This document shows, piece by piece, positions 7,957-33,974 of a stretch of 64,000 nt of DNA; position 1 is the stretch's first letter; every line of letters begins with the position of its first letter. The notes beneath the pieces were generated by a model. That model saw only the letters and a list, made by a program, of their open reading frames with translations, did no database searches and was not told where the DNA came from. Position numbers and translations under genes: made by a program. Location: the NCBI GenBank assembly GCA_040753795.1, contig JBFMDX010000001.1, positions 496,001 to 560,000 on the forward strand, written 5' to 3'. The DNA comes from Thermodesulfobacteriota bacterium (GTDB taxonomy: Bacteria > Desulfobacterota > Desulfobacteria > Desulfobacterales > Desulfosudaceae).

Positions 7957-8826
7957 ATGAAGATTCTGCAGTTGTATGAAAGCAAAAAAGCGTCGGTCAT
8001 ATCCCTGGAATTTTTCCCGCCCAAGGATGCCGGCGCGTTTGAAAAAACGGTGGACGAACTGGCCCTTTTGCAGCCGGACTATGTGACGGTGACGTTCGGC
8101 GCCGGGGGATCAACCCGGGAAGGGTCGTACCAGACCGTTAAACGATTGATCGAGGATAAAAACCTGCCGGTGGTCGCCTATATCGCCGGTTACGGCCTAG
8201 GGCCGAACGAGATCACCGCTGTACTGGACAAGTATCAGGCACTGGGAATCGGGACGATTTTTGTTATCCGCGGCGACAAACCCCGGGAGGCCGATTTTGT
8301 CCCGCACCCTGACAGCTTCAATTATGCATATGAAATGCTCCGGTTCATCAGGGAAAGATACGACTTCACGCTGGGCTGCGCCGGTTACCCGGAAGGGCAT
8401 ATAGAGGCCGAGAACCTGGAGGCCGACATCGAGCATCTGAAATTGAAGATCGACAGCGGCGCCGAATATGTGGTTACCCAGTTCTGTTATGACAACAGCC
8501 TGTTTGCGAATTATGTGGAAAAATGCCGGGCCAGAGGCATCACTGTTCCCATCATCCCCGGCATCATGCCGGTCTATTCTCTGAAATTGACCCGGACGCT
8601 CACCAAACTGTGCGGCGCGTCCATCCCCGAATCGATGAAGCGGCTCCTGGACGGATTGGCCGATGCCGGCAGTGACACGGTGCTGGACTTCGGTATCGAT
8701 CAGGCAACGGAACAGTGCCGGGGTCTGTTGAGGCAGAAGGTGCCGGGGCTGCATTTTTACACCATGGACCGCAGCCGCTCCACCTGCGAGATCATTCGTC
8801 GCCTGAAATCGGATCGTTTGATTTAA
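7957..8826 (+). CDS. metF: Methylenetetrahydrofolate reductase
   Basis: A 289-residue TIM-barrel flavoprotein that interconverts 5,10-methylene- and 5-methyl-tetrahydrofolate. Typical features are the N-terminal LEFFPPKD strand with the catalytic Glu, VTVTFGAGGSTREG, the IRGDKP segment, GCAGYPEGH, and TQFCYDN near residue 190. The start ATG 7957 follows AAAGGGGA at 7943-7950; an upstream in-frame codon at 7906 would give a non-homologous extension. In this organism the enzyme probably serves the methyl branch of the acetyl-CoA pathway as well as methionine synthesis. It stands alone here, about 17.6 kb from the acs operon, and overlaps the convergent dikinase gene by 4 bases. Confidence 0.92.
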   Translation: MKILQLYESKKASVISLEFFPPKDAGAFEKTVDELALLQPDYVTVTFGAGGSTREGSYQTVKRLIEDKNLPVVAYIAGYGLGPNEITAVLDKYQALGIGTIFVIRGDKPREADFVPHPDSFNYAYEMLRFIRERYDFTLGCAGYPEGHIEAENLEADIEHLKLKIDSGAEYVVTQFCYDNSLFANYVEKCRARGITVPIIPGIMPVYSLKLTRTLTKLCGASIPESMKRLLDGLADAGSDTVLDFGIDQATEQCRGLLRQKVPGLHFYTMDRSRSTCEIIRRLKSDRLI

Positions 8827-11438
8827 CCCGAACCGGCTTGTCCGGCCAGAACGGATTTTCTGATGTCGGCGTTGATTTTTTCCCGGTAATAGGCGATGGC
8901 CGCCTCGTTGGACATGATCATGTCCAGCTGCCGGGTATGCAGAACCAGATAGCCCAGGATTTTCAATCGCTCCAGCATGAAAGCGATTTCAAATCCTTCG
9001 ACCCGGGCGACCAGGTTGTCCCGGTTGGTTTCGACCCGGAACCCGTGATCCGTGAGGATGTCGGCGATGAACCGGATGCGCCGGATCCGGCGCTGGCTGT
9101 CGGCGGCGCCTCCCTTGAAACGGAAGCTGATATAGTTTTCGGCGGTCCGTTCGCTGACCAGGGACTCCACGGTTGAAAAATGATATCCCAGCCGGGACGT
9201 GAAGCTGCAGTAATTTTTGGAAATCATGAAATAGTTGCGTTCCGTGTAGGCGGACTTGACGGACGTCTCCAGGTCCCGGTTGGCCGTGGAGCGGAACATA
9301 ACCGAAGCCAGCCCCTTGTTGTCAATGGGCGGCGGCCCGTCCCAGGGCACCGCGATCATGCCTTCCCACAGGGCCAGCATGGGAACGGACGTGATCTCCT
9401 CCAGCCGGATATGCTTTCCTCTGGCGTCTTCCCGGACCCCGTCATCCAGGTTCAGTATCCACCATTGCATGGGCACTTTATAGAAGAGCTGCTTGCTGGA
9501 GCGCTCGGAGAAGTCGTGATCCCTGCCGAAATTGAACATCTCCTGCACCGATTTCTCATGGGCAAAGCGGGTGATGTCGTGAAAGGTTTGGCAGTTCTCG
9601 GGTTTGAAGTCCGGAGAATAGGGGTCCAGCAGGTTCAGGGGGATGATGTATCGGCTGACCTCCAGCAGGGTGTTATACACCGGGCTGCCTTCGATGCGGC
9701 TGCGGTCGGAATCCGCGGGCCGCTGGGGGAGGTCCACGATGCCGGCGTAAACACAGGCGCTGCCGGCGTCCACCGTCACGCGGTCACCGTTTTTCAGGGT
9801 CCGGGTGAGGTCTTTCAGGCCGAATATGGCCGGCACCTGGAATTCCCGGGCGACGTTGGCCAGATGACCGGCAAAGGTGCCGTGCTCGGTCAGAACGGCG
9901 GCCGTGCGGTTGAGCAGCGAGGCCCACAGGGGCAGCGCCTGGCTGGCCACCAGTACCCCGCCCTCGGGAAAGCGGACCATGTCGTCGGGACCGGTCACGA
10001 TGAACACTTCTCCGGCGGCGATTCCCGGGCAGATGACGGTTCCCCCCGAGGCCAGCACGTTTTCCCTGGCCTTCTGCATGAGGGCGTCGGAAACTTCGGC
10101 CGTTCCGGATTCCATCTGCCGAAGGGGTCGACACTGAAGGATATAGACAGTTCCGTCCCGGTCGATGGCCCATTCCACGTCCTGGGGAGACCCATAGTAC
10201 AGTTCCATGCGCACGGCCAGTTCCGCCAGGGCCGTGGCCTCGTCATCCCGAATGGACGGCTGGGACACGGTTTCATCAACGGTTTCCATCCGGCAGGTGC
10301 CGCCTTCGGTCCGGCAGACGAAACGGCTTTTTTTGTCCCGGATATCCCGGCGGGATATCTCCAGGGGTTCAGTCCGCGCGACCACGAACAGGTCGCAGTC
10401 CACGCTGCCGTCCACCACGGCCTTGGGCAGGCCCCAGGCTGAATTGATGAAGATGGAGTCGTCGCCGGCGTCCAGGGGATTGCGGGTGTACATGACGCCG
10501 CCGCAGCGGGCGTCCACCATGGCCAGACAGCCGACGCTCATGGCGATGTCTTCATCCCGGATGCCTTTATTGAGGCGGTAGGTGATGGCGGTCAAACTGT
10601 ACTTGCTGGCCACGACCTCCTTGTAGGTTTGCACCAGGGACGCCAGGGACACGTTGAGTTCGGAGTGATACTGTCCGGCAAAGGAGTTGGCGGCCGAGTC
10701 TTCGCCCATGGCGCTGCTTCTCAAGGCCATGGGAACCGGTCCGCCCGATTCTTGCTCCAGGGCGCCGGCGGCCCCGGTCATCTCCTGCTCCAGGTCTTCC
10801 GGAAGAGGCGCGCTGATGATCATTTTCCGGATCTCCTCGCTGGCGGCGTAGAGGGCCTCCATATCGGTGATATCGATGGCGATAAAGCGCTTGTCGATGT
10901 CGGCCTGGAGATCGTTGTGGGCAATGAAGTGTTGATAGGCACGGGCGGAAATGACAAATCCGGCCGGGACCTTCAGCCCGACCTTGTTCCGGATTTCGCC
11001 CAGGTTGGCCATCTTGCCGCCGACCAGGTCCGCCATGGTGCGGTCCACGTCGGCCAGGGGAATGACGGCCCGCTGGTCGGCGGGCTCTTTTTTCTGCTCG
11101 ATCAGGGCGCTGACGTTTTTCATGATTTCGTCAAAACGCCCGTAAAGCGGGTTGTATTTGCCGCCGCTTAACTGCTCCAGGTGTTTGAGGAGGCGGAGCA
11201 GGTTGACGGTAATGGCGATGCAGTTGCTTCTGACAAAGGACATGCCGAAGGGCTGCCTGCCCGCCAGGGCCTGTTCCATGGCGGTCATGATTTCAAGGGC
11301 GCTGTTATTGGCGTTGAGCAGCAGCTTGAAGTGGTGGTAGCGCTCCTTGAAGGCAATGCGGAGGCCCTCCACGTCGACCGTGTCGGCGGATGACGTTCCG
11401 GTGAGCCGCGATTTGAAGAAATGGATCAGTCGTTTCAT
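8823..11438 (-). CDS. Dikinase-like phosphotransferase: ATP-grasp, phosphohistidine domain, novel C-terminal domain
   Basis: An 871-residue protein. Residues 1-125 are a helical extension. Residues about 130-440 form the PPDK-type ATP-grasp domain with GGKMANLGE, RSSAMGEDSAANSFAGQ and VEWAID...YILQCRP. Residues about 465-570 are the swivelling domain with His525 in FAGHLANVARE, the residue phosphorylated in PEP synthase and PPDK. Residues 570-871 are not the PEP/pyruvate TIM barrel but a roughly 300-residue domain I do not recognise, so the phosphate acceptor is unknown. Rifampin phosphotransferase shows that this architecture can serve other acceptors. The upstream neighbours are a TauE/SafE permease, a membrane protein and two response regulators on the same strand. 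No Shine-Dalgarno is visible; a perfect 19-bp hairpin lies directly upstream. Confidence 0.75.
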   Translation of the reverse strand: MKRLIHFFKSRLTGTSSADTVDVEGLRIAFKERYHHFKLLLNANNSALEIMTAMEQALAGRQPFGMSFVRSNCIAITVNLLRLLKHLEQLSGGKYNPLYGRFDEIMKNVSALIEQKKEPADQRAVIPLADVDRTMADLVGGKMANLGEIRNKVGLKVPAGFVISARAYQHFIAHNDLQADIDKRFIAIDITDMEALYAASEEIRKMIISAPLPEDLEQEMTGAAGALEQESGGPVPMALRSSAMGEDSAANSFAGQYHSELNVSLASLVQTYKEVVASKYSLTAITYRLNKGIRDEDIAMSVGCLAMVDARCGGVMYTRNPLDAGDDSIFINSAWGLPKAVVDGSVDCDLFVVARTEPLEISRRDIRDKKSRFVCRTEGGTCRMETVDETVSQPSIRDDEATALAELAVRMELYYGSPQDVEWAIDRDGTVYILQCRPLRQMESGTAEVSDALMQKARENVLASGGTVICPGIAAGEVFIVTGPDDMVRFPEGGVLVASQALPLWASLLNRTAAVLTEHGTFAGHLANVAREFQVPAIFGLKDLTRTLKNGDRVTVDAGSACVYAGIVDLPQRPADSDRSRIEGSPVYNTLLEVSRYIIPLNLLDPYSPDFKPENCQTFHDITRFAHEKSVQEMFNFGRDHDFSERSSKQLFYKVPMQWWILNLDDGVREDARGKHIRLEEITSVPMLALWEGMIAVPWDGPPPIDNKGLASVMFRSTANRDLETSVKSAYTERNYFMISKNYCSFTSRLGYHFSTVESLVSERTAENYISFRFKGGAADSQRRIRRIRFIADILTDHGFRVETNRDNLVARVEGFEIAFMLERLKILGYLVLHTRQLDMIMSNEAAIAYYREKINADIRKSVLAGQAGSG

Positions 11439-13535: not shown

Positions 13536-13970
13536 TTAAGTCTGTTTCCGGATAATATCCTCAATTCCTTTAATTTTTGATTCCTGAAGCCGTTTTTTCT
13601 GACAGGCGTCCTTTATTTTATAAAACAGTTCGTCAAAGTCCGCCGGTTTGACGATATAATCAAAGGCGCCGACCTCCATGCCTTCTCTGGCCGCGTCCAG
13701 CATGGCGTGACCGGTGAGCATGATGACCTCGATCAGGGGCCATCGGGTTTTGATTTCTTTTAAGATCTCGATGCCGCCGCGGCAGCCGGGCATTTTGACA
13801 TCCAGGACCACCACGTCCACGGGCTGCTTTTCAATCAGGGCCAGGGCCTCTTCTCCGCTGGGAATGCCGGTGGCGTTTATCTCCCGCCTGGTCATCCGTT
13901 TGGTGATGACATCGAGAAATCCGGTCTCGTCATCCACAAAAAGCACGTTCACCATATCAGGCATTTCCAC
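13536..13970 (-). CDS. Single-domain response regulator (receiver only)
   Basis: A receiver domain of about 144 residues with the acidic pair in LFVDDE, the phospho-acceptor Asp in VVVLDVKMPG and the conserved Lys in YIVKPADF. No DNA-binding or output domain follows, only a basic helical tail. The GTG at 13970, ATG at 13964 or ATG at 13952 could each be the start; they differ by at most 6 residues and none has a decisive ribosome site. It lies between the second receiver gene and TauE on the same strand. Confidence 0.85.
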   Translation of the reverse strand: MEMPDMVNVLFVDDETGFLDVITKRMTRREINATGIPSGEEALALIEKQPVDVVVLDVKMPGCRGGIEILKEIKTRWPLIEVIMLTGHAMLDAAREGMEVGAFDYIVKPADFDELFYKIKDACQKKRLQESKIKGIEDIIRKQT

Positions 13971-13993: not shown

Positions 13994-14416
13994 TTAGGAG
14001 CCGTCTTTTCCCATCTTGCCCAGGTAACGGCGTTTTTCCTCATTGATTTTCCGCTTCTCGCGGGCCTCTTCAATTTTCCGCACCAGTTCACTGATCTGGC
14101 AGGGCTTCATCAGATAGTCGCCGGCGCCGAGGTTGATCCCTTCCACCGCCGCTTCAAAGGTGGCCTGTCCGCTTAACATGATGACCTCCACCAGGGGAAA
14201 CCGTTTTTTGATCTCTTTTAGCACAGTAATGCCGTCCATGCCCGGCATTTTTACGTCCAGGACCACCACATCGGCATCCTGTTCCGCCAGCAGTCGAATA
14301 GCCGTTGTCCCTTCAAGGGCGGTCCGGACATCGTATCCCCGCTTGCTTAAAAGCTTGGCGTTTGAAGTGACAAAAGCCTCCTCGTCATCTACCAGCAGTA
14401 CTGTTGCCGTTGTCAT
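13994..14416 (-). CDS. Single-domain response regulator (receiver only)
   Basis: A 140-residue receiver with LLVDDEE, the phospho-acceptor in VVVLDVKMPGMDG and the conserved Lys in YLMKPCQI, ending in a strongly charged helix (REKRKINEEKRR). It has no output domain. It is the first gene of the operon, 23 bases before the next receiver and about 70 bases from a sigma-54-type promoter. GAGG with 7-base spacing precedes ATG 14416. With no histidine kinase in the operon, signal input must come from elsewhere. The pair may act as phosphate relays or by binding a partner protein. Confidence 0.88.
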   Translation of the reverse strand: MTTATVLLVDDEEAFVTSNAKLLSKRGYDVRTALEGTTAIRLLAEQDADVVVLDVKMPGMDGITVLKEIKKRFPLVEVIMLSGQATFEAAVEGINLGAGDYLMKPCQISELVRKIEEAREKRKINEEKRRYLGKMGKDGS

Positions 14417-15721: not shown

Positions 15722-18034
15722 TTATCGGCCCGCTCCGCGGCGGGACTGGATGGAATGGAGCCTGGCTTTCATCCCGGAGCTTACTTCGGCGGCGTTGGCT
15801 TCGTCCGTGTCGATGTGAAATTCGAGATTAAAATCGGGATTTACCCGAACGACCACATCGCCGAAAATCAGCGACCGTTCACCTTCGACCTGGATCATGA
15901 CGACATCCCTGTCCCGCACGCCGAGTTCCAGTGCGTCCTGGGGGCCGATATGGATATGCCGCTGGGCGCAGATGACCCCCTTGGACAGCGTCACTTGTCC
16001 GGCCGGTCCGATCAGGGTCAGGCCGGGGGTGCCTTCCAGGTCGCCCGACTGCCGGATGGGCGCGTCGATGCCGAGCTTGAATTCCTCCGTCCGTGATATT
16101 TCCACCTGGGTTTCGTTTCTGGCCGGGCCCAGGACCCGGACCCGATCCACCCGTCCCTTGGGGCCGACCAGATCGACCTGCTCCTTGCAGGAGAACTGGC
16201 CGGTCTGATAAAGCGGGGTGTGGAAGGTTAACCCGTGGCCGGGGCCGAACAGGGCCGCGACATGTTCCTTGGACAGGTGGACGTGATGGGCGGAAACACC
16301 GACCGGTATGAGTTTGTCATGGCTTTTGATGACCCGGGTTACCCGGGCCCTGGATACGGTATTGACGGATTCGCGGGCGATCATGCGCTCCTCGTCCGTG
16401 GGCACGATCAGGATTTTTACCGGGGAATTGTCGGCGGAGATGGTCGCGGCGGGTGAACCCCGATAGGCGGGATCGCGGTTGGCCGCCTCGTCCAGAACAA
16501 TGCCGATGCCCGACAGTCCCTGGCAGACCCGGGCCCGTACTTCCGCCGCGTTCTCCCCGATGCCGCCGGTAAAGACCAGCACATCGATGCCGCCCAGGGC
16601 TGCCCAGAAGGAACCGATGTATTTTTTGACGTTGTAGCAGAACAGCTGAAGCGCTGTCAGCGCCCGGTCGTTCCCCTGGCCGGCTGCCTCCAGGATCTCA
16701 CGCATGTCGCTGGAAATACCGGATATGCCCAGCAACCCGCTCTCCTTCATGAGTACTTTTTCCATTTCCGCGGGGGTCAAACTGTGCTCCTTCATGATGT
16801 GCAGCAGGGCGCCGGGATCAAAGTCCCCGCAACGGGTCCCCATGGTCAGCCCGGCGATGGTGCTCATGCCCAGGCTGGTGTCCACGCAGCGGCCGTGGTC
16901 GATGGCCGCCAGGGAACAGCCGTTCCCCAGATGGCAGGTGATCATCTTCAATTCGGGACTACGCCTTTTGAGGAACTGCGCCGCCTGGAGGGAAACGAAT
17001 TTGTGGGACGTGCCGTGGTAGCCGATTTTATAGATCCCTTCCTCGAAAAAGCGGTAGGGAATACCGTAGATGCGGGCGAATTTCGGTATGGTGGCATGAA
17101 AGCCGGTGTCGAAGACGGCGATATTGGCGGCCCGGGGTATGAGCCGCCGCGCTTCTTCAATACCGGCCACGTTGGCCGGGATATGCAGGGGCGCTGTTTT
17201 TTCGACGGCCCGGATGGCTCCCAGCACCTCATCCGTGACTTCCACCGCGTTGGAATGATCCCGGCCGCCGTAAACCACCCGGTGGCCGACCACTTCGATT
17301 TTTTCCAGGGTGTCCCTTCCGCCCAGCCCGTTGACCATGGCCGCGAACGCTGCCGCGAATCCGCCGCCTTCTATCGTTTCCCGGCCTTTGACGCCGGCGC
17401 GGTCAAAAACGTGGGTGGTGTCACTCAAGCCGATGCGATCGACCAGTCCTTTGACCAGGGGGAGCTCGCTGCGGCCGTCAAACAGGCGGTATTTCAGAGA
17501 CGAGGAACCGCAATTCACGGTCAGGATGAGCCCGCCGGACGGCAGGGGAAAACTGGCCAGCCCGTAAGGATCTACCTGGGCTTTCTGGGCTTCGATCAGC
17601 CGTTCCTTTTCCCGGACATCAAGATCTCTCGCCACCAGCCTTCGGGAAATGGTGGCGGCCAGGGTCGCCGCCAGAAACGGTTCGGTCGAGACAATCGGGG
17701 TCAGCACCTCATGGGGGACCATGACCACCCTGGCGTCGGTCAGGGCGGAAACATCGGCCGTGGTCGGCTCGCCCGTCATGAGCGACATTTCACCGAAGAA
17801 TTCGCCCTTTTCCAGCACGTTCAGCCTTTCCCGGACGCCGTCGGCATTGGCGCGGGAAATCTCGATCCGTCCGTCCAGGATTACGCCGAAAAAATGTCCG
17901 GCTTCGCCGAACCGGATGATGGCTTCTCCTTCCGGGATATGTTCAAAGCGGGCCTGGGACAGGATTGTAGCCAGGGACGCATCGGACAGCTTTTTGAATA
18001 CGGGCAGGTTTTTCAGCTCGTTATCGTTCGGCAC
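15722..18034 (-). CDS. Fusion: cyclic-nucleotide-binding-like domain + acetate kinase + PduL phosphotransacylase
   Basis: A 770-residue chain that would carry both steps from acetyl-CoA (or propionyl-CoA) to the free acid plus ATP. Residues 1-135 are a cNMP-binding fold; in the phosphate cassette (GEFFGEMSLMTGEP, 77-90) the usual Arg is replaced by Thr92, so classic cAMP binding is doubtful. Residues about 168-560 are a complete acetate kinase: LTVNCGSSSLKY, GHRVVYGG, HGTSHKFV, HLGNGCSLAAI, MGTRCGDFDPG and FTGGIGEN. Residues 574-770 are PduL-type phosphotransacylase with both zinc/CoA His motifs, SAHHVHLS (His583-586) and CAQRHIHIGP (His693, His695). The start is GTG 18034 behind AAGGAG. It is divergently placed from murJ. 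Confidence 0.9.
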   Translation of the reverse strand: MPNDNELKNLPVFKKLSDASLATILSQARFEHIPEGEAIIRFGEAGHFFGVILDGRIEISRANADGVRERLNVLEKGEFFGEMSLMTGEPTTADVSALTDARVVMVPHEVLTPIVSTEPFLAATLAATISRRLVARDLDVREKERLIEAQKAQVDPYGLASFPLPSGGLILTVNCGSSSLKYRLFDGRSELPLVKGLVDRIGLSDTTHVFDRAGVKGRETIEGGGFAAAFAAMVNGLGGRDTLEKIEVVGHRVVYGGRDHSNAVEVTDEVLGAIRAVEKTAPLHIPANVAGIEEARRLIPRAANIAVFDTGFHATIPKFARIYGIPYRFFEEGIYKIGYHGTSHKFVSLQAAQFLKRRSPELKMITCHLGNGCSLAAIDHGRCVDTSLGMSTIAGLTMGTRCGDFDPGALLHIMKEHSLTPAEMEKVLMKESGLLGISGISSDMREILEAAGQGNDRALTALQLFCYNVKKYIGSFWAALGGIDVLVFTGGIGENAAEVRARVCQGLSGIGIVLDEAANRDPAYRGSPAATISADNSPVKILIVPTDEERMIARESVNTVSRARVTRVIKSHDKLIPVGVSAHHVHLSKEHVAALFGPGHGLTFHTPLYQTGQFSCKEQVDLVGPKGRVDRVRVLGPARNETQVEISRTEEFKLGIDAPIRQSGDLEGTPGLTLIGPAGQVTLSKGVICAQRHIHIGPQDALELGVRDRDVVMIQVEGERSLIFGDVVVRVNPDFNLEFHIDTDEANAAEVSSGMKARLHSIQSRRGAGR

Positions 18035-18176
18035 GTCGCCCTTCTCCTTATTTCTTGTGTCGGTTGCGGGGATTAGGCTCGATACGCCTGATTCTTTAGA
18101 CTATTACAACATCAGGCCGGAATCAACATATTCCGCATACGGCGGCAATCCGGATCAACCCGGCCTCGCGGTGGTA

Positions 18177-25599: not shown

Positions 25600-27144
25600 G
25601 TGGGTTTTGAAATCACAAAACAAGCTTATGCCGGCAGCATCAAGGAAATTGCCATTGGAAAAGGCAAAACTGCCGTGAAAGTCGGCGGAGAGACGACCTC
25701 ACCTTTCTACCTGTTTGAAGGGGAAATGCCGAACAAGCCCAAGGTGGCCATGGAACTCTGGGACATGAAGCCCGAGGACTGGCCGGCCTGGGCCGTGGCG
25801 CCGTTCAAGGATGTTCTTTCCGATCCGGCCGCCTGGGCCAAGAAGTGCGTTGAGTTCGGCGCCGACATGGTCGTGCTCCAGCTCAAAAGTATTGATCCCA
25901 ACGGCAAGAACGCCAGTGCCGCCGACGCGGTGGCCGTGGTGAAGAAAGTGACCGGGGCGGTTAAGGTGCCGGTTATCGTCTGGGGCAGCGCCAACGCGGA
26001 AAAGGACGAGGAAGTCTTCAAGAAGATCGCCGAAGAGTGCCAGAACGTTCAGTTGACCCTGGGACCGGTGGAAGAGAAGAACCACAAGGGCATAGGCGCC
26101 GCCGCCATGGGTTACGGCCATGCCGTCATCTCTTCCTCTCCCATCGACGTCAACCTGGCCAAGCAGATCAACATCCTGCTGGAAAACCTGGGCATGCCCA
26201 CGGACCGGATCGTCATCGATCCGACCACCGGCGGTCTGGGCTACGGCATGGAATACACCTATTCAGTAATGGAGCGCCTGCGCATGGCGGCCATGGGCCA
26301 GGGCGACGACAAGCTCCAGTACCCCATCATCAACAACCTGGGCAACGAAGTCTGGCGCTGCAAGGAAGCCAAACAAGGCGTGGATGAGGCCCCGGCCCTG
26401 GGTGATCCGGAAAAACGGGCCGTCCTGATGGAAGCCGTCGGCGCCGTCACTTACCTGATGGCCGGCAGCAACATTCTGATTATGCGTCATCCGGAAGCGG
26501 TCCGCATGGTCAAGGCCTTCATCGATAAACTGGCTGACGGCGGCTCCCTCAAGGACGTGGCCGGTATCAAGCAGCTTCTGGCACCGGCCAAGATCGACTA
26601 CGCCGCTCTGGCCCCCAAGCCCGATCTGACGATTGAAGAGGAAAAGAAAGTCGAGGCCAAGAAAGCGGCTCCGGCGGCCAAAAAAGCCGCTCCGGCTCCG
26701 GCAGCCAAGAAAGCGGCTCCGGCGCCTAAGGCCGCACCGGCCGCTCCGGCGGCGGCAGCTGCTCCGGCTGCTCCGGCAGCCCCGGCCGTAGATGCGGCCG
26801 CGGCCGCGGCCGAAGCCAAAGTCCGCGCGGAAATGGATGCCAAGGCCAGAGCCGAAGCCGACGCCAAGGCCAAAGTGGAAGCGGCCGCCAAGGCTAAGGC
26901 CGAAGCTGAAGCCCAGAAAAAAGCCGCGGCCGAAGCTGAGAAAAAGGCCGAAGCCGAAGCCCGGGCCAAGCGTGATGAAGAGGAGAACGTTCTGCGCCTG
27001 AAACGGGCCGAAGAGCGCGAGAAACTGGCTGCGGCAAGGAAGCCGACGAGCCAGGCGCTTTACACATTTACCGCCGCCGCCGAGCAGATGACCGATCTGG
27101 ACAGAATTGTTGCCAGATTAAACAAGCTGCACAGACGGGGATAA
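25600..27144 (+). CDS. acsD: CODH/ACS complex subunit delta (corrinoid iron-sulfur protein small subunit) with long C-terminal tail
   Basis: A 514-residue protein. Residues 1-345 are the TIM-barrel small subunit of the corrinoid iron-sulfur protein (FYLFEGEMPNKPKVAMELWD, DPTTGGLGYGMEYTYSVMERLR, NEVWRCKEA). It pairs with AcsC to hold the cobamide that carries the methyl group. Residues about 350-400 are an Ala/Pro/Lys-rich flexible linker, 400-475 a highly charged Ala/Glu/Lys coiled coil, and 485-514 a short folded-looking end (LYTFTAAAEQMTDLDRIVARL). Typical homologues such as the acetogen form stop after the barrel (about 320 residues), so the tail is an added module. GTG start 25600 follows AAGGAGG at 25587-25593. 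It is first in the operon. Confidence 0.93.
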   Translation: MGFEITKQAYAGSIKEIAIGKGKTAVKVGGETTSPFYLFEGEMPNKPKVAMELWDMKPEDWPAWAVAPFKDVLSDPAAWAKKCVEFGADMVVLQLKSIDPNGKNASAADAVAVVKKVTGAVKVPVIVWGSANAEKDEEVFKKIAEECQNVQLTLGPVEEKNHKGIGAAAMGYGHAVISSSPIDVNLAKQINILLENLGMPTDRIVIDPTTGGLGYGMEYTYSVMERLRMAAMGQGDDKLQYPIINNLGNEVWRCKEAKQGVDEAPALGDPEKRAVLMEAVGAVTYLMAGSNILIMRHPEAVRMVKAFIDKLADGGSLKDVAGIKQLLAPAKIDYAALAPKPDLTIEEEKKVEAKKAAPAAKKAAPAPAAKKAAPAPKAAPAAPAAAAAPAAPAAPAVDAAAAAAEAKVRAEMDAKARAEADAKAKVEAAAKAKAEAEAQKKAAAEAEKKAEAEARAKRDEEENVLRLKRAEEREKLAAARKPTSQALYTFTAAAEQMTDLDRIVARLNKLHRRG

Positions 27145-27234
27145 TCGTATCCGAAGATAATGACACATCGGTGGCTATCGCCGAAGATATAAAAAATATT
27201 ATTAAAATATATTAAATATGAGGAGGAACCTCTA

Positions 27235-29274
27235 ATGGCAGACGAAGAAAAAAAAGCTACGGTAGCTAAAGTTGAAAAAGCGCCGAAGGTAGCCGATCCT
27301 GTCAAGGTTTCGATCGAGCCCGCGACTCAGGAGATGCTCGCCCGGGCCCAGAAACTGGGGATTGAAACCGTATTTGACAGAGCCGAAACCATGAAGGCCT
27401 GCGCCATCGGCGAGCAGGGCACCTGCTGCAAGAACTGCGGCATGGGACCCTGCCGGCTTCCGCTTCCCAAGGATGGCATTCAGGGAGAAGACACCAGAAA
27501 AGGCCTGTGCGGAGCGACCGCCAATACCATCGCGGCCCGCAACTTCGCCAGAATGGTGGCGGCCGGCACCTCCGCCCATTCCGATCACGGCCGCAGCGTG
27601 GCCGAGGTCTTCCTTTCCGTGGCCCGGAAAGAGACCCATGACTACACCATCAAAGATGTCAGCCGCATGCTCCAGATCGCTCCCTGGTTTAACGTGGCCA
27701 CCACGGTCGAGGTGGACGGCAAGACTCAGGACAGAAACGTTGATGAAATCGCTCTGGAACTGGCTGAAAAAATTCTGGCCGAGTGGGGCAAGCCCGAAGG
27801 CGAACTGGCCTACCTGAAACGGGCGCCCAAGCCGCTTTATGAAAAATGGAAAAAGATGGGCGTGCTTCCCCGGAATATCGACCGGGAAGTCGTCGAGGTC
27901 ATGCACCGCACCCACATGGGCGTGGATCAGGACTACAAGAATATCGTCAAGCAGTGCACCCGGACGTCCCTGGCCGACGGCTGGGGCGGCTCCATGATGG
28001 CCACCGACCTGCAGGACATCATGTTCGGCGCGCCGACGCCCCTTCAGTCTGAAGCCAACCTCGGCATCATGAAGGAAGACCACGTGAACATCATCGTTCA
28101 CGGCCATGAACCGGTCCTGTCCGAGATGATCGTGGCCGCGGCCCAGTCCAAAGAGATGCTCGACTACGCCAAGAAAAACGGAGCCAACGGCATCCAGCTC
28201 GGCGGCATCTGCTGTACGGCCAACGAGATTCTGCAGCGCCACGGCATTCCCACGGCAGGCAACTTCCTGCAGCAGGAACTGGCCATCGTGACCGGCGCCT
28301 GCGACGCCATGGTGGTGGATATCCAGTGCGTGTTCCAGAACCTGGCCAACGTGGCCAAGTGCTTCCACACCAAGCTGATTACCACCCATCCCATCGCCAA
28401 GATGGAACAGGATAACGTCATCCATATTGAATTCAGTGAACATCATGCCATGGACGACGCCGTGAAAATCGTCAGGATGGCCTGTGAAAACTTTAAGAAT
28501 CGTAAAGCCGAAGTCGTCATTCCCCGGCACAAGGCCGTTCAGATCGCCGGTTTCGGCGTCGAGTCCATTGAATACCACCTGGGCGGTTCCTTCCGCGGCA
28601 CCTACTATACCCTGAACGACAACATCATTAATGGTCGTATCCGGGGTCTGGCGGGCGTGGTCGGCTGCAACAACGCCCGGGTTAAGCACAACGAAAACCA
28701 CATCACGATCGTCAAAGAGCTGATCAAGAATGACGTTCTGGTCCTAACCACCGGCTGCTCGGCCATTACCTGCGCCATGCACGGACTGCTGACGCCGGAA
28801 ACGGCGGCTGTGTACTGCGGTCCCGGTCTGGCCGAAGTCTGCGAAACCGTCGGTATCCCCCCGGTCCTTCACCTGGGCTCCTGCGTTGACAACACCCGCA
28901 TTCTGCTGGCGGCCACCGAGGTGATTAAAGCCGGCGGACTGGGAAAAGATCTTTGTGATATTCCCGCGGCCGGTTCCGCGCCCGAGTGGATGAGCGAGAA
29001 GGCCATCGCCATCGGTCATTATTTTGTCTCTTCAGGCGTGTATACCGTTTTCGGCAACCATCTCCCCCTGGACGGCGCACCGGTATTCCAGGACTACCTG
29101 TACAAGGAAATGGAAAAGATATATGGCGGCAAATGGGATTGCGAGCCGGATCCGGTCAAACACGCGCAGAAGATGATCGCCCATATCGACAAGAAGCGGA
29201 AAGCCCTGGGCATCGACAAGGCCAGGGAACGCGTTCTCATGGATATGGCCGACCGCCAGGCACTGGATGCATAA
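27235..29274 (+). CDS. acsA: Carbon monoxide dehydrogenase catalytic subunit
   Basis: A 679-residue Ni-Fe-S enzyme that interconverts CO and CO2. The N-terminal Cys set for the D and B clusters is present (Cys56, Cys64, Cys65, Cys68, Cys73, Cys92; motif CCKNCGMGPCR). C-cluster ligand motifs follow: GICCTANEI, VDIQCVFQNL, GVVGCNNAR, TTGCSAITCAMHG and HLGSCVDNTRI. The N-terminus has a charged extension of about 25 residues. AGGAGG precedes ATG 27235. With AcsB it forms the tunnel-linked CODH/ACS complex. No cooC-type nickel insertase lies beside it. Confidence 0.96.
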   Translation: MADEEKKATVAKVEKAPKVADPVKVSIEPATQEMLARAQKLGIETVFDRAETMKACAIGEQGTCCKNCGMGPCRLPLPKDGIQGEDTRKGLCGATANTIAARNFARMVAAGTSAHSDHGRSVAEVFLSVARKETHDYTIKDVSRMLQIAPWFNVATTVEVDGKTQDRNVDEIALELAEKILAEWGKPEGELAYLKRAPKPLYEKWKKMGVLPRNIDREVVEVMHRTHMGVDQDYKNIVKQCTRTSLADGWGGSMMATDLQDIMFGAPTPLQSEANLGIMKEDHVNIIVHGHEPVLSEMIVAAAQSKEMLDYAKKNGANGIQLGGICCTANEILQRHGIPTAGNFLQQELAIVTGACDAMVVDIQCVFQNLANVAKCFHTKLITTHPIAKMEQDNVIHIEFSEHHAMDDAVKIVRMACENFKNRKAEVVIPRHKAVQIAGFGVESIEYHLGGSFRGTYYTLNDNIINGRIRGLAGVVGCNNARVKHNENHITIVKELIKNDVLVLTTGCSAITCAMHGLLTPETAAVYCGPGLAEVCETVGIPPVLHLGSCVDNTRILLAATEVIKAGGLGKDLCDIPAAGSAPEWMSEKAIAIGHYFVSSGVYTVFGNHLPLDGAPVFQDYLYKEMEKIYGGKWDCEPDPVKHAQKMIAHIDKKRKALGIDKARERVLMDMADRQALDA

Positions 29275-29323
29275 GCGGATATTACTTTTCACATGATAAA
29301 AAGCCTCAACGAAGGAGGACAAT

Positions 29324-31534
29324 ATGTCTAAGTTAGTTGCCTTTGCCGCCATTCAGGGCGGTTATAAAGTGGTATCCCAGGTGGAAGGCGAGCTGGTCAA
29401 CGCGCTGGAATCCATGAACGCGGATACCAAAGTGGAGTTCCCCAATACCGGGTATTTTCTGCCGGTCATCTATTCCCTGACCGGCATGAAGGTCAAGACG
29501 CTGGAAGACATGAAGGCGCCCATGGCTTTTGCCCGCAAGCTGCTGCCCCCTCATATCAAGGGCAAAAACCATCTGCCCTACCTGGGGCCGTTGCTGGATG
29601 CCGGCATGGCGTCCATCCTGGCCTATGAAATCAAGGAAGCCCTGCGTATCGTCCGGCAGCCGGACTTTTACTTTCCCCAGGAAGACCCGGACCTGGAAAA
29701 CGGCAAGAAGTGGGTCGGCCCGGCCGATGATATTATTTTGAGAAAACGCGGTGTCGAATTCGTCGATGGTTCGGCCCCCGGCTTTGCCGCCATGGTCGGC
29801 GCGGCGCCCAATCCCGAGATTGCCAAGATGATCGTGGAAGATTATCAGAAGCGCAACCTTTACATCTTCTGCGCCGCCAATCACAACGGCACCACCCTCA
29901 TCGATCAGCTCATCGAGGCCGGTGTCCAGGTCGGCTGGAACACCCGTATCGTTCCCTTCGGCCCGGATATTTCGTCGGCCGTCTTCGCCCTGGGCTTCGC
30001 CAACCGGGCCGCCATGGCCTTCGGCGGCGTCCAGCCCGGCGATTACAAGAAAATATTGATGTACAACAAGGATCGCGTTTTCGCCTTTGTCAACGCCCTG
30101 GGCGATATCGGAACCGAGTGGGCCTGCGCGGCCGCCGGCTGCGTTAACTGGGGTTTCCCCACCCTGGCCGACACCGACGTTCCCGAGATCCTGCCCACGG
30201 GTATCTGCACCTACGAGCACGTGGTGGCCAACGTCAAGCATGACGAGATGGTCCAGCGTTCGGTGGAAGTCCGCGGCCTCAAGGTCACGGTTTCCCAGAT
30301 CGACATCCCCTGCTCCTTCGGTCCGGCCTACGAGGGCGAGCGCATCCGCGGCAAGGACCTGCATTCCCAGATGGGCGGCGGCAAGACCCAGTGCACCGAA
30401 CTGGTCAAGTCGGCCGACATGAAGGAGATCGAAGACGGCAAGGTGACCGTGGTGGGCAAGGACATTCCCGATCTCAAGGAAGGCGACGTTCTGCCCCTGG
30501 GCATTTATGTCCAGATCGCCGGCCGCGAATTCCAGGAAGATTTCGAGCCGATCCTGGAACGGCAGATTCACCACCTGGTCAACTATATCCAGGGCATCAT
30601 GCATGTCGGCCAGCGCGATATCTCCTGGGTGCGCGTCGGCAAGGGCGCGGTTGAAAAAGGGTTTACCTTGAAAGATATCGGCGTGGTTCTGCATGCCAAA
30701 ATGCATCAGGACTTCGGCAAGATTCTGGACAAGGTCCAGGTCACCCTGTTCACCAATAAAGACGACGTGGACAAGCTGACCGCCAAGGCCCGGGCCGAGT
30801 ACAAGAAGAGAGATGAGCGCGTCGACAAGATGACCGACGAAGACGTGGAGACCTACTATTCCTGCACTCTCTGTCAGTCCTTCGCGCCCAACCATGTCTG
30901 CTCCATCAGCCCGGAGCGGACCGGCCTGTGCGGCGCTTATAACTGGATGGACTGCAAGGCGTCCTTTGAGATCAACCCCACCGGACCCAACCAGCCCATC
31001 GTCAAGGGTGAGTGCATCGATCCGAAGCTGGGTCAGTGGAAGGGCGTCAACGAGTTTGTCTTCAAGGCCTCCCGCGGCGCGGTAACCCATTACAACTTCT
31101 ACTCCATGGTTCATGATCCCATGACGACCTGCGGTTGCTGCGAATGTATCGCGGCCACGCTGCCGGGTTTGAACGGCGTCATGACGGTCGGCCGGGATTA
31201 CACCGGCGACACCCCCTGCGGCATGAAGTTCACCACCCTGGCGGGCGTCATGGGCGGCGGCGCGGTCTCCCCGGGCTTCGTGGGCCATTCCAAGTACAAC
31301 ATCACCCAGGGCAAATTCCTCAAGGGTGACGGCGGACTGCTGCGCATGGTCTGGATGCCCAAGATGCTCAAGGAAGAACTCAAGGATCGCATCGACGCCA
31401 GAGCCAAACTGCTGGGCGTTCCGGATCTGTATGATAAGATCGCCGACGAAACCGTCGGGGTTACGGAAGAAGAGATCCGGCCGTTCCTGGAGGAAAAGGG
31501 CCATCCGGCGCTTTCCATGGAACCCCTCATGTAA
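29324..31534 (+). CDS. acsB: Acetyl-CoA synthase catalytic subunit
   Basis: A 736-residue enzyme that makes or cleaves acetyl-CoA from CO, a methyl group and CoA. A-cluster ligands are visible: Cys514, Cys517, Cys526 and Cys536 for the cubane (CTLCQSFAPNHVC, then TGLC) and the Cys603-Gly604-Cys605 motif that holds the distal nickel. Length and domain order match the bacterial ACS, including the N-terminal CODH-contact domain absent from the archaeal form. AAGGAGG at 29312-29318 precedes ATG 29324. A strong hairpin lies between this gene and acsC. Confidence 0.96.
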   Translation: MSKLVAFAAIQGGYKVVSQVEGELVNALESMNADTKVEFPNTGYFLPVIYSLTGMKVKTLEDMKAPMAFARKLLPPHIKGKNHLPYLGPLLDAGMASILAYEIKEALRIVRQPDFYFPQEDPDLENGKKWVGPADDIILRKRGVEFVDGSAPGFAAMVGAAPNPEIAKMIVEDYQKRNLYIFCAANHNGTTLIDQLIEAGVQVGWNTRIVPFGPDISSAVFALGFANRAAMAFGGVQPGDYKKILMYNKDRVFAFVNALGDIGTEWACAAAGCVNWGFPTLADTDVPEILPTGICTYEHVVANVKHDEMVQRSVEVRGLKVTVSQIDIPCSFGPAYEGERIRGKDLHSQMGGGKTQCTELVKSADMKEIEDGKVTVVGKDIPDLKEGDVLPLGIYVQIAGREFQEDFEPILERQIHHLVNYIQGIMHVGQRDISWVRVGKGAVEKGFTLKDIGVVLHAKMHQDFGKILDKVQVTLFTNKDDVDKLTAKARAEYKKRDERVDKMTDEDVETYYSCTLCQSFAPNHVCSISPERTGLCGAYNWMDCKASFEINPTGPNQPIVKGECIDPKLGQWKGVNEFVFKASRGAVTHYNFYSMVHDPMTTCGCCECIAATLPGLNGVMTVGRDYTGDTPCGMKFTTLAGVMGGGAVSPGFVGHSKYNITQGKFLKGDGGLLRMVWMPKMLKEELKDRIDARAKLLGVPDLYDKIADETVGVTEEEIRPFLEEKGHPALSMEPLM

Positions 31535-31547
31535 TGTTGCGATGACC

Positions 31548-31572
31548 GGGACCGGGGCAACCCCCCGGTCCC
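31548..31572 (+). terminator. Stem-loop between acsB and acsC
   Basis: GGGACCGGGG (31548-31557) pairs with CCCCGGTCCC (31563-31572) around a 5-base loop, followed by only three T. It looks like an attenuator or mRNA-end stabiliser rather than a full terminator. Confidence 0.65.
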
Positions 31573-31645
31573 TTTATCGCGGCTTGGGGTGTGACACGAT
31601 TAAATAACGTTTTGGATTTTAATATAAGGAAAGAAGGAGAGAGAA

Positions 31646-32992
31646 ATGGGTTTAACCGGAATTCAGATATTCAAACTCCTGCCGCAGACCAACTGCAAGG
31701 AGTGCGGTGCTCCCACCTGCCTGGCCTTTGCCATGAACCTGGCGGCCGGCAAGGCGGAGCTTGACAGCTGCCCGTACGTTTCCGACGAGGCCAAGGAAAA
31801 GCTGGCCGAGGCCTCCGCGCCTCCCATCCGCCCCGTCAAGCTGGGCAAGGGCGTCCGCGCCCGGGTTACCGGCGGAGAAACGGTCCTGTGCCGCCATGAG
31901 AAAACATTTTACAACCCCACCATCCTGGCGGCCATGGTCGACGGCAAGATCAGCAAGAAGGATCTGGAAGCCAAGCTGAAAGCCTGGAACGCCATCCAGT
32001 ATGAGCGCGTCGGTCTGAACCTGCGGCCGGAGATGGTGGCCGTGAAAGACACCGGCGACGCCAAGGCCTTTGCCGCCACCGCCAAGGTCGTGGCCGAGAC
32101 TTCGGAATTCAACGTCATCCTGATGACCGAAGATCCCGCCGCCATGAAAGCCGGAGTTGAGGCCTGCGGCTTCAAGCGTCCCCTCCTGTTCGGGGCGACC
32201 AAGGCCAATATCGACGATATGTGCAAGATCGCCAAGGAAGCCGATCTGCCCCTGGGCGTCAAGGCCGGTTCCGTGGCCGACCTGATTCCCCTGACGGACA
32301 AACTGACCGCCGCCGGCCTCAAGGACATCGTCCTGGATTCGGGCGCCCGGGAAGTCAAACAGGCCCTGGAAGACCAGGTGGCCATCCGGCGCGCGGCCCT
32401 CAAGGCGCAGAACCGGTCCCTGGGTTTTCCCACCATTACTTTCCCCTGTGAAATGGCCGGCAATGTTGATGTGGAAGCCATGATCGCCGCCATGTTCGTG
32501 GCCAAGTACGGCGGCATCGTGGTCATGTCCGATTTCGCCGGTGAAACGGTCTTCCCGCTGCTGCTGGAACGCCTCAACATCTTTACCGATCCTCAGCGGC
32601 CCATGACCGTTACCGAGGGCATTTACGAGATCAACAACCCCGGCGAGAACTCACCGATCCTGGTGACCACCAACTTTGCCCTGACCTACTTCATCGTTTC
32701 CGGTGAAATTGAAAACAGCAAGGTGCCGTCATGGCTGCTGATCAAGGATTCCGAAGGTCTGTCCGTCATGACCGCCTGGGCGGCCGGAAAGTTCGCCGGT
32801 GACGACGTGGGCGCCTTCGTGAAAAAGTCCGGTATCATGGACAAGGCCAAGACCAGGGAGTTGATCATCCCCGGTTACGCCGCCGCCATCGCCGGCGAGG
32901 TCGAGGAAGAGCTGGCCGGCTGGACCATTACCGTCGGTCCCCGGGAAGCGTCGCTGATTCCCGCCTTCCTGAAAGAAAAAGCAAAGAAGTAG
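31646..32992 (+). CDS. acsC: Corrinoid iron-sulfur protein large subunit (CODH/ACS subunit gamma)
   Basis: A 448-residue partner of AcsD. The N-terminal domain holds the [4Fe-4S] cluster used for reductive activation of cobalt, with Cys17, Cys20, Cys25 and Cys42 (TNCKECGAPTC, then DSCPYV). A TIM barrel follows (about 95-320) and a C-terminal cobamide-binding domain (about 325-448). The normal length is about 446. AAGGAG at 31634-31639 precedes ATG 31646. Confidence 0.95.
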   Translation: MGLTGIQIFKLLPQTNCKECGAPTCLAFAMNLAAGKAELDSCPYVSDEAKEKLAEASAPPIRPVKLGKGVRARVTGGETVLCRHEKTFYNPTILAAMVDGKISKKDLEAKLKAWNAIQYERVGLNLRPEMVAVKDTGDAKAFAATAKVVAETSEFNVILMTEDPAAMKAGVEACGFKRPLLFGATKANIDDMCKIAKEADLPLGVKAGSVADLIPLTDKLTAAGLKDIVLDSGAREVKQALEDQVAIRRAALKAQNRSLGFPTITFPCEMAGNVDVEAMIAAMFVAKYGGIVVMSDFAGETVFPLLLERLNIFTDPQRPMTVTEGIYEINNPGENSPILVTTNFALTYFIVSGEIENSKVPSWLLIKDSEGLSVMTAWAAGKFAGDDVGAFVKKSGIMDKAKTRELIIPGYAAAIAGEVEEELAGWTITVGPREASLIPAFLKEKAKK

Positions 32993-33010
32993 AATGTATG
33001 GAATAGAATT

Positions 33011-33053
33011 GTCCGGGTAAGGAAGGGCTCATTAAATCCCTCCTTCCCGGACA
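33011..33053 (+). terminator. Imperfect stem-loop between acsC and acsE
   Basis: GTCCGGGTAAGGAAGGG (33011-33027) pairs with one bulge and one mismatch to 33038-33053, followed by CTTTAT. It is likely to lower or segment transcription into acsE. Confidence 0.55.
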
Positions 33054-33092
33054 TCTTTATTAACCCCGGCAGCAAGCATAAGGAAAATTGAT

Positions 33093-33974
33093 ATGATACT
33101 TATTGGTGAAAGTTTAAACGTCATCTCCAAGAAGATCGGCAAGGCGTTCAAAGAGCGCGATCCCAAGCCGATCCAGGAAGAGGCCCTGGACCAGAAAGCC
33201 AAGGGCATGGATTACATCGACATTAACCTGGGGCCGGCCAAAAAGGACGGCATCGAGCTGATGCCCTGGGTCATCCAGACGGTGCAGGCAGTGGTGGATC
33301 TGCCCCTGGCCCTGGATACCTCCAACATCGACGCCATCGAAGCCGGCCTGAAAGTGTATCAGCCGACCTCCCAGCCGCCCCTGGTCAACTCCATCATGGT
33401 TCGGCCGGAACGTTACAACCGCATGGTGCCGCTGGCGGCCGAACACAATGCCGATTTCATCGCCCTGATGTGGGGTCCGGAAGGCCTGCCCCGGGACGAG
33501 AACGAGCGCGCCGCTCTGGCCGTGGAATTGATGACCGTGGCCAACGAAGCCGGCATCGGCAACGAGCGCATGTGGTTTGACGGCATCGTCACCCCGGTCA
33601 ACGTTCAGCAGGACCAGGTGATGAGCCTGCTCAATTTCCAGATGATGATCGGCGACATCGCCCCGGGCTGCAAAAGCACCTGCGGTCTGTCCAACATTTC
33701 CAACGGCCCACCCTCCCACCTGCGGCCCATCCTGAACCAGACCTACATGATCATGCTGGAACGCTACGGCATGTACTCGGTCATTTCCGATCCTCTGGAC
33801 ACGAAACTGACCGACATTGCCAAGGGCAACCGTCAGGACATCAAGGACGTGGTTCTGGCCGTCATGGACGGGACCGAACCGGACGCGCCGACCAAGGAAC
33901 TTCAGGACTACGTCAAGACCGCCAAGGTCATTCTGGGCCACACCCTTTATTCCGATTCCTGGCTCGAAATTTAA
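33093..33974 (+). CDS. acsE: 5-methyltetrahydrofolate:corrinoid iron-sulfur protein methyltransferase
   Basis: A 293-residue pterin-binding TIM barrel that moves the methyl group between tetrahydrofolate and the AcsC/AcsD corrinoid protein. It shows the family N-terminus LIGESLNVISKKIG, the pterin-binding strand DYIDINLGPAKKDG, LALDTSNIDAIEAGL, and STCGLSNISNG with the Asn that hydrogen-bonds the pterin. AAGGA precedes ATG 33093. It is the last gene of the operon and is followed by a terminator. Confidence 0.94.
   Translation: MILIGESLNVISKKIGKAFKERDPKPIQEEALDQKAKGMDYIDINLGPAKKDGIELMPWVIQTVQAVVDLPLALDTSNIDAIEAGLKVYQPTSQPPLVNSIMVRPERYNRMVPLAAEHNADFIALMWGPEGLPRDENERAALAVELMTVANEAGIGNERMWFDGIVTPVNVQQDQVMSLLNFQMMIGDIAPGCKSTCGLSNISNGPPSHLRPILNQTYMIMLERYGMYSVISDPLDTKLTDIAKGNRQDIKDVVLAVMDGTEPDAPTKELQDYVKTAKVILGHTLYSDSWLEI

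Follow-up and report, generated by a model that had tools for sequence, protein, structure and literature searches.

A recurrent three-domain protein combining a cyclic-nucleotide-binding-like domain, acetate kinase and PduL phosphotransacylase in a single chain: a likely bifunctional enzyme

Does an open reading frame that appears to join acetate kinase (AckA) to the phosphotransacylase PduL, behind a cyclic-nucleotide-binding-like (CNB) domain, encode a genuine bifunctional enzyme, and what might the additional domain do? The frame lies on the minus strand of a 64,000-nucleotide stretch of a Thermodesulfobacteriota genome, hereafter the window. A preliminary description had placed three domains in this frame, at residues 1-135, 168-560 and 574-770. 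Pfam profile matches confirm the arrangement on the minus strand, and the limits obtained (31-115, 170-554 and 577-751) agree with those proposed. The features are as follows.

15722..18034, minus strand: three-domain gene (CNB-AckA-PduL), 770 residues, with a GTG start at 18034 and a stop codon ending at 15722
18044..18049, minus strand: AAGGAG, a Shine-Dalgarno-like pattern read by eye, ending 9 bases 5' of the GTG
17690..17944, minus strand: CNB domain, residues 31-115, Pfam PF00027 (cNMP_binding), E 2.3e-19
17750..17797, minus strand: phosphate-binding cassette, residues 80-95, FGEMSLMTGEPTTADV; Glu82 is retained and the Arg position is Thr91
16373..17527, minus strand: acetate kinase domain, residues 170-554, Pfam PF00871 (Acetate_kinase), E 2.1e-127, with residue map
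15782..16306, minus strand: PduL (PTAC) phosphotransacylase domain, residues 577-751, Pfam PF06130, E 1.9e-76, with residue map

A CNB domain, a complete acetate kinase and a complete PduL are thus encoded by one 770-residue open frame. All three Pfam domains score above their cut-offs; for instance, the CNB match reaches 69.6 bits against a cut-off of 27.5. NCBIfam models assign the chain to both the acetate/propionate family kinases (412.5 bits, cut-off 293.4) and the phosphate propanoyltransferases (261.9 bits, cut-off 209). An AlphaFold model of the full chain, for which the input alignment consisted of AckA rows only, has a mean pLDDT of 66.8 and a pTM of 0.58. The AckA part is confident, most of the CNB and PduL parts fall below 60, and no conclusion was drawn from the model. 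Searches of the phylum and of selected classes, taken together, revealed the three-domain protein in 32 genomes, the window's own counted, and a two-domain AckA-PduL protein lacking the CNB domain in 9. One protein was inspected from each of the 32, and 6 of the 9 two-domain genomes were domain-scanned.

The kinase part was mapped by alignment to the Methanosarcina thermophila acetate kinase (MtACK, 1g99; the best PDB match is 2iir). Of 25 mapped positions, 22 are identical in the window protein, including N7, R91, H123, D148, H180, N211, G239, R241, G331, N335 and E384 (MtACK numbers). The catalytic positions N7, R91, H123, D148, H180, R241 and E384 are all among them; we take R91, H123, D148, H180, R241 and E384 to have their accepted catalytic roles. 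The nucleotide-binding loops are likewise identical at S10-S12 and K14 in PHOSPHATE1, N211 in PHOSPHATE2, G239 in LOOP3 and G331 in ADENOSINE. Across 42 fusion frames, R91, D148, H180, R241 and E384 are invariant wherever the residue is present (41 or 42 of 42). Unlike the solved enzyme, the window AckA is fused to PduL and a CNB domain, and differs at three positions: F179 is Tyr339, P232 is Thr392 and A330 is Gly490. The last change is common, since Gly occupies position 330 in 39 of the 42 fusions. The other two lie near the acid pocket, which Phe179 lines in MtACK, and are rare among the 41 fusions with a residue there (Thr for P232 in 1, Tyr for F179 in 2). V254 and L283, equivalent to MtACK V93 and L122, are retained. 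Val93, Leu122 and Pro232 are named as determinants of acetate binding in the part of PMC4390882 consulted. Given the rarity of T392 and Y339, a shift in the acid preference of the window AckA is possible.

Conservation of the kinase is less complete elsewhere in the family. The window copy has Asn at the N211 position, where Ser is found in 27 of 41 fusions. Excerpts of PMC4390882, which discuss N211, G239, G331 and the four loops, describe Ser at this position in the acetate kinase of Cryptococcus, an enzyme with a strong preference for making acetate, and report that in MtACK N211S brings kcat down from 715 to 13 per second. Ser at N211 in the relatives is therefore no more than a hint as to direction and a caution as to rate. 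In the fusions of two genomes, G083 and G019 (loci L010 and L011, respectively), the PHOSPHATE2 motif GNG has become ENT or EHT, and GGIGEN in the ADENOSINE loop has become GWLGQS or GWIGET, with Trp replacing Gly331. Arg285, S10 and L122 are also altered, and R91, D148, H180, R241 and E384 are retained. The portion of PMC5517563 consulted states that all ATP-dependent acetate kinases share Gly331 and that the pyrophosphate enzyme of Entamoeba has Gln in its place; it adds that closing the MtACK pocket did not yield pyrophosphate use. L010 and L011 may use another acceptor, or they may be failing kinases or pseudo-kinases. Their loop losses, together with the frequent Ser at N211 (27 of 41 fusions), mean that a strong kinase cannot be assumed in every member of the family.

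In the PduL part, we mapped the 17 positions named in the available sections of PMC4784909, which assign residue roles and list the zinc ligands H48, H50, E109, H157, H159 and H204 together with the conserved R103. In the window protein, 16 of the 17 are identical to the solved enzyme (PF06130; 5cuo), the sole change being Thr at K70. All six zinc ligands are present, here and without exception in the 42 fusion frames; R103 and S127, which contact the phosphate, are identical in the window protein. Apart from K70, the window PduL differs from the solved enzyme in being the C-terminal part of a fusion rather than a separate protein.

With identity at 22 of 25 AckA and 16 of 17 PduL positions, the zinc ligands among them, one chain should be able to interconvert acetyl-CoA and acetate plus ATP. 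The PduL part would make acyl phosphate from phosphate and acetyl-CoA or a different short acyl-CoA; within the same polypeptide, AckA would then transfer the phosphoryl group to ADP, yielding the acid and ATP. Both steps may run in reverse, so that the predicted net reaction is acetyl-CoA + Pi + ADP <-> acetate + ATP + CoA. The ADP-forming acetyl-CoA synthetase carries out the same net reaction as one enzyme. Its fold and mechanism differ from those of AckA and PduL, and the likeness is functional only. We consider it likely that the window fusion is a bifunctional acetate kinase-phosphotransacylase; activity, direction, substrate and coupling, like any ligand of the CNB domain, are what we infer from the sequences. 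Channelling of acyl phosphate within the chain, as proposed in the preliminary description, may also occur, although the sequence itself gives no sign of it.

The distribution of other acetate enzymes points the same way. In 8 of 14 fusion genomes checked, no full-length acetate kinase was found besides that of the fusion (G258, G437, G455, G400 with a split copy, G589, G542, G516 and G741). The last four also have a weak partial acetate kinase match (60-70 bits), which looks like a butyrate kinase, a naming of our own, and G420 has only a partial acetate kinase match. A separate full-length AckA is present in the window's genome (G000), G083, G019, G137 and G472. No match to the Pta family was found in 6 of the 14 genomes (G258, G472, G437, G455, G400 and G420), and the Pta matches of G589, G542, G516 and G741 are weak (at most 102 bits), which leaves 10 of 14 without a strong match to Pta. 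These absences are less safe in G437 and G420, which are 82% and 85% complete, than in G455 (99%). In genomes without another full-length AckA or a strong Pta, the fusion is probably a main acetyl-CoA/acetate route. The bifunctional reading is thus supported both by the conserved active sites and by genomes in which the fusion is the only full-length AckA and often the only strong phosphotransacylase match.

The window organism itself fits this pattern less well. Its genome has a single PduL domain, the fused one, and also carries a separate pta-ackA pair on another contig. Moreover, among the fusions in the AckA tree the window copy sits on the longest branch (0.94), and its median identity to the other members is 31% for the CNB domain, 48% for AckA and 60% for PduL. 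Together with the Y339 and T392 replacements, these points stand against the main reading. They would fit a protein in which PduL is active and the AckA part is failing or re-specialised, as a kinase for another acid or a regulatory pseudo-kinase, with pta-ackA doing the ordinary work. The altered PHOSPHATE2 and ADENOSINE loops of L010 and L011 are in keeping with this, as both genomes possess separate Pta and AckA. Yet in the window protein the mapped catalytic and nucleotide-loop positions are intact, except for the widespread A330 to Gly change, and the fusion of G137 retains GNG and GGIGEN although that genome has a separate pair too. We therefore regard loss or re-specialisation of the kinase as unlikely, and a bifunctional enzyme as the preferred reading.

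The genomic context adds a plausible host and no pathway. CODH/acetyl-CoA synthase genes occur in the window at 25600-33974, the last of which, a methyltransferase, falls below its NCBIfam cut-off, and the genome encodes dsrA (610.7 bits, cut-off 392.85). These genes are in keeping with an anaerobic host that has the Wood-Ljungdahl pathway and dissimilatory sulfite reductase. In a comparison of 25 loci, in 23 of which the fusion frame was located by script, no conserved neighbours were found. The largest shared group covers 6 of the 25 loci, its members lie at scattered positions, and consequently no pathway can be read from the context, a further point against the main reading. Promoter-like sites are at chance level (3 found, 2.2 expected), and 11 terminator-like sites were found where 6.6 were expected. 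Near the fusion, two small stand-alone receiver-domain proteins are encoded in tandem on the minus strand (13536-13970 and 13994-14416), and no histidine kinase was found among seven proteins scanned around the fusion. That acetyl phosphate serves these receivers as phosphodonor is speculation. Two further proteins are encoded on the minus strand of the window: a sodium/proton exchanger with a PTS EIIA domain in one chain (37431-39140), and a PEP-synthase-like protein with a PPDK_N domain and a PEP-utilizers mobile domain (8823-11438), for which no further Pfam domain was found in the C-terminal 300 residues.

We next consider the CNB domain. From the architecture we infer that it may regulate the fusion. 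Catalysis probably does not need it, because 9 genomes carry the two-domain form. CNB domains are attached to other proteins that are not transcription regulators. For instance, the mycobacterial acetyltransferase Pat/Kat, as described in part of PMC5861322, resembles the fusion in having an N-terminal CNB domain on an acetyl-CoA-using enzyme, but it is another enzyme and one in which cAMP binds. The Family 2b encapsulin, in an excerpt of PMC8049743, likewise carries a CNB domain, although it is a shell protein whereas the fusion is an enzyme pair. No CNB relatives were found in viral contigs.

The distinctive feature of the domain in the fusions is its phosphate-binding cassette. The window protein retains the Gly-Glu pair (G81, E82), and Glu82 is kept in 30 of 32 three-domain proteins. 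The cassette Arg is absent from all 32, being replaced by Ala in 24, Thr in 5 and Asn in 3. The preliminary description had noticed the missing Arg, correctly, and placed the equivalent residue at Thr92; alignments to solved cGMP-dependent kinases show it to be Thr91 (EPTTA in the window, EPRTA in the kinases). Its suggestion that the ligand may not be cAMP is strengthened by the family-wide loss. Because the Arg is missing in 32 of 32, canonical binding of cAMP or cGMP, or ordinary cAMP control, is unlikely.

Could the domain nevertheless bind cAMP or cGMP and switch the enzyme? Its clear homology to PF00027, the retention of Glu82 and the precedent of mycobacterial Pat, a cAMP-controlled enzyme with a fused CNB domain (PMC5861322, consulted in part), would allow it. 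The uniform replacement of the Arg argues against it, as does a comparison with three of the five other CNB proteins encoded by this genome, two of which (L003 and L004) carry Arg at that position and one of which (L005) lacks it; we find such a switch quite improbable. Sensing of a purine nucleoside appears similarly improbable. The parts of PMC10959531 available describe trypanosome PKA regulatory subunits that have lost the cassette Arg, which is replaced by polar T318 or N442 beside a Val, and that bind purine nucleosides through Glu (E311/E435) in place of PKA A202/A326. The fusion cassettes resemble these in having Thr, Asn or Ala at the Arg position, with an adjoining Val in 15 of 32, but the position of the ribose-contacting Glu, as matched by motif and by ourselves, is Ser84 in the window and Ser, Ala or Pro in the 32 proteins (26, 4 and 2, respectively). 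For the N-terminal CNB domain, a part in regulation or oligomerisation without canonical cyclic nucleotide binding is most likely; the domain may have another ligand or a purely structural role.

A frameshift or an assembly join between the domains, as raised in the preliminary description, would make the window gene a sequencing or assembly product of separate genes, but nothing in the window copy speaks for this, a single relative (G400) shows a frame break, and because 32 genomes carry the same architecture in one open frame this explanation can safely be ruled out.

All of the sampled and class-level searches for the three-domain form lay within the window's own phylum. Among 389 genomes sampled from the window's class, the AckA-PduL fusion occurs in 5, with the CNB domain in G000, G258, G083 and G019 and without it in G137. 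A sample of 395 genomes from the phylum yielded five further three-domain genomes (G472, G437, G455, G589 and G542, the frame of G437 reaching a contig end), the two-domain form in G516 and G741, a partial match in G420 and the split copy of G400 (L149), in which a break between AckA and PduL puts the two sides, CNB-AckA and PduL, in separate reading frames. At most two candidates were scored per genome in both samples, and these frequencies are accordingly estimates. The fusion is far more frequent in some groups. The class of G589 gave matches at E <= 1e-120 in 40 of 155 genomes; judged by coordinates, 26 of these have a three-domain copy, 8 a two-domain copy and 6 partial matches only. These counts include again G455, G589, G542, G516 and G741. 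Four genomes of this class (G907, G908, G909 and G910) have two separate fusion matches each, both near full length in G907 and G910. All 3 genomes of the class of G472 match, namely G472, G437 and the split copy of G400. Closer to the window the fusion is patchy, as evidenced by 1 of 86 genomes in the family of G258 and neither of the 2 other genomes searched in the window's own family (E <= 1e-60).

Quick trees with SH-aLRT support only were built for both enzymes. In the PduL tree (123 rows), all 42 fused PduL domains fall inside a 43-row group (SH-aLRT 99), the sole non-fused member of which is L149, the PduL of the frame-split G400 copy. This tree favours a single origin of the forward fusion. 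In the AckA tree (94 rows, 13 of them forward fusions), the forward fusions form one group together with the stand-alone AckA proteins of G690 and G707 (SH-aLRT 86), and these two group with the two-domain fusions (SH-aLRT 99). No PduL match was found in the 1.5-kb flanks of either stand-alone gene. The AckA tree would thus require that PduL was lost once or that the two enzymes were joined twice.

A contig scan by exact short peptides returned 435 loci. Among the best 80, the three-domain protein was not found, and 16 Bacilli loci (L047-L060, L066 and L085) encode a fusion in the reverse order, PduL-AckA. They belong to Paenibacillus, Brevibacillus, Alicyclobacillus, Tumebacillus, Cohnella and Aneurinibacillus. 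In 13 loci, from Azoarcus or other proteobacterial MAGs, ackA and then pduL are adjoining genes, one of these loci being cut by a contig end. The Bacilli proteins resemble the window fusion in carrying both enzymes in one chain, but have the opposite order, no CNB match and a distinct AckA clade, their 16 sequences forming another group in the AckA tree (SH-aLRT 100). By this grouping the Bacilli reverse fusion is separate from the forward fusion. The statement of the preliminary description that AckA and PduL are normally separate proteins thus needs qualifying, as the forward fusion is found repeatedly in the phylum and the reverse one in Bacilli. Occurrence in either order suggests that the union of AckA and PduL is favoured. 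The adjoining ackA and pduL genes, the reverse fusions and the single group of fused PduL domains also speak for the bifunctional reading.

We found no description of either the forward fusion or the Bacilli reverse fusion in the open-access literature, subscription journals lying largely outside the search. As far as that search reaches, the three-domain architecture is real, recurrent and undescribed. AckA and PduL are well known, and the fusing of consecutive enzymes is a familiar theme; greater interest lies in the CNB domain, whose cassette is altered in every copy inspected. A bolder proposal, which we put forward tentatively and regard as unlikely, is that the fusion is an undescribed, widespread one-chain acetyl-CoA-to-ATP enzyme whose CNB domain senses a metabolite other than a cyclic nucleotide, such as a nucleoside or a CoA derivative, gates the flux between acetyl-CoA and acetate, the enzyme retaining acetyl phosphate and thereby preventing it from phosphorylating response regulators.

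In many anaerobes AckA and a phosphotransacylase stand at the core of energy metabolism and set the level of acetyl phosphate, a possible signal. The presence of both activities and a sensor-like domain in one chain would make acetyl phosphate channelling and allosteric control testable, and the uniform loss of the CNB Arg marks this family as a place to seek a new CNB ligand.
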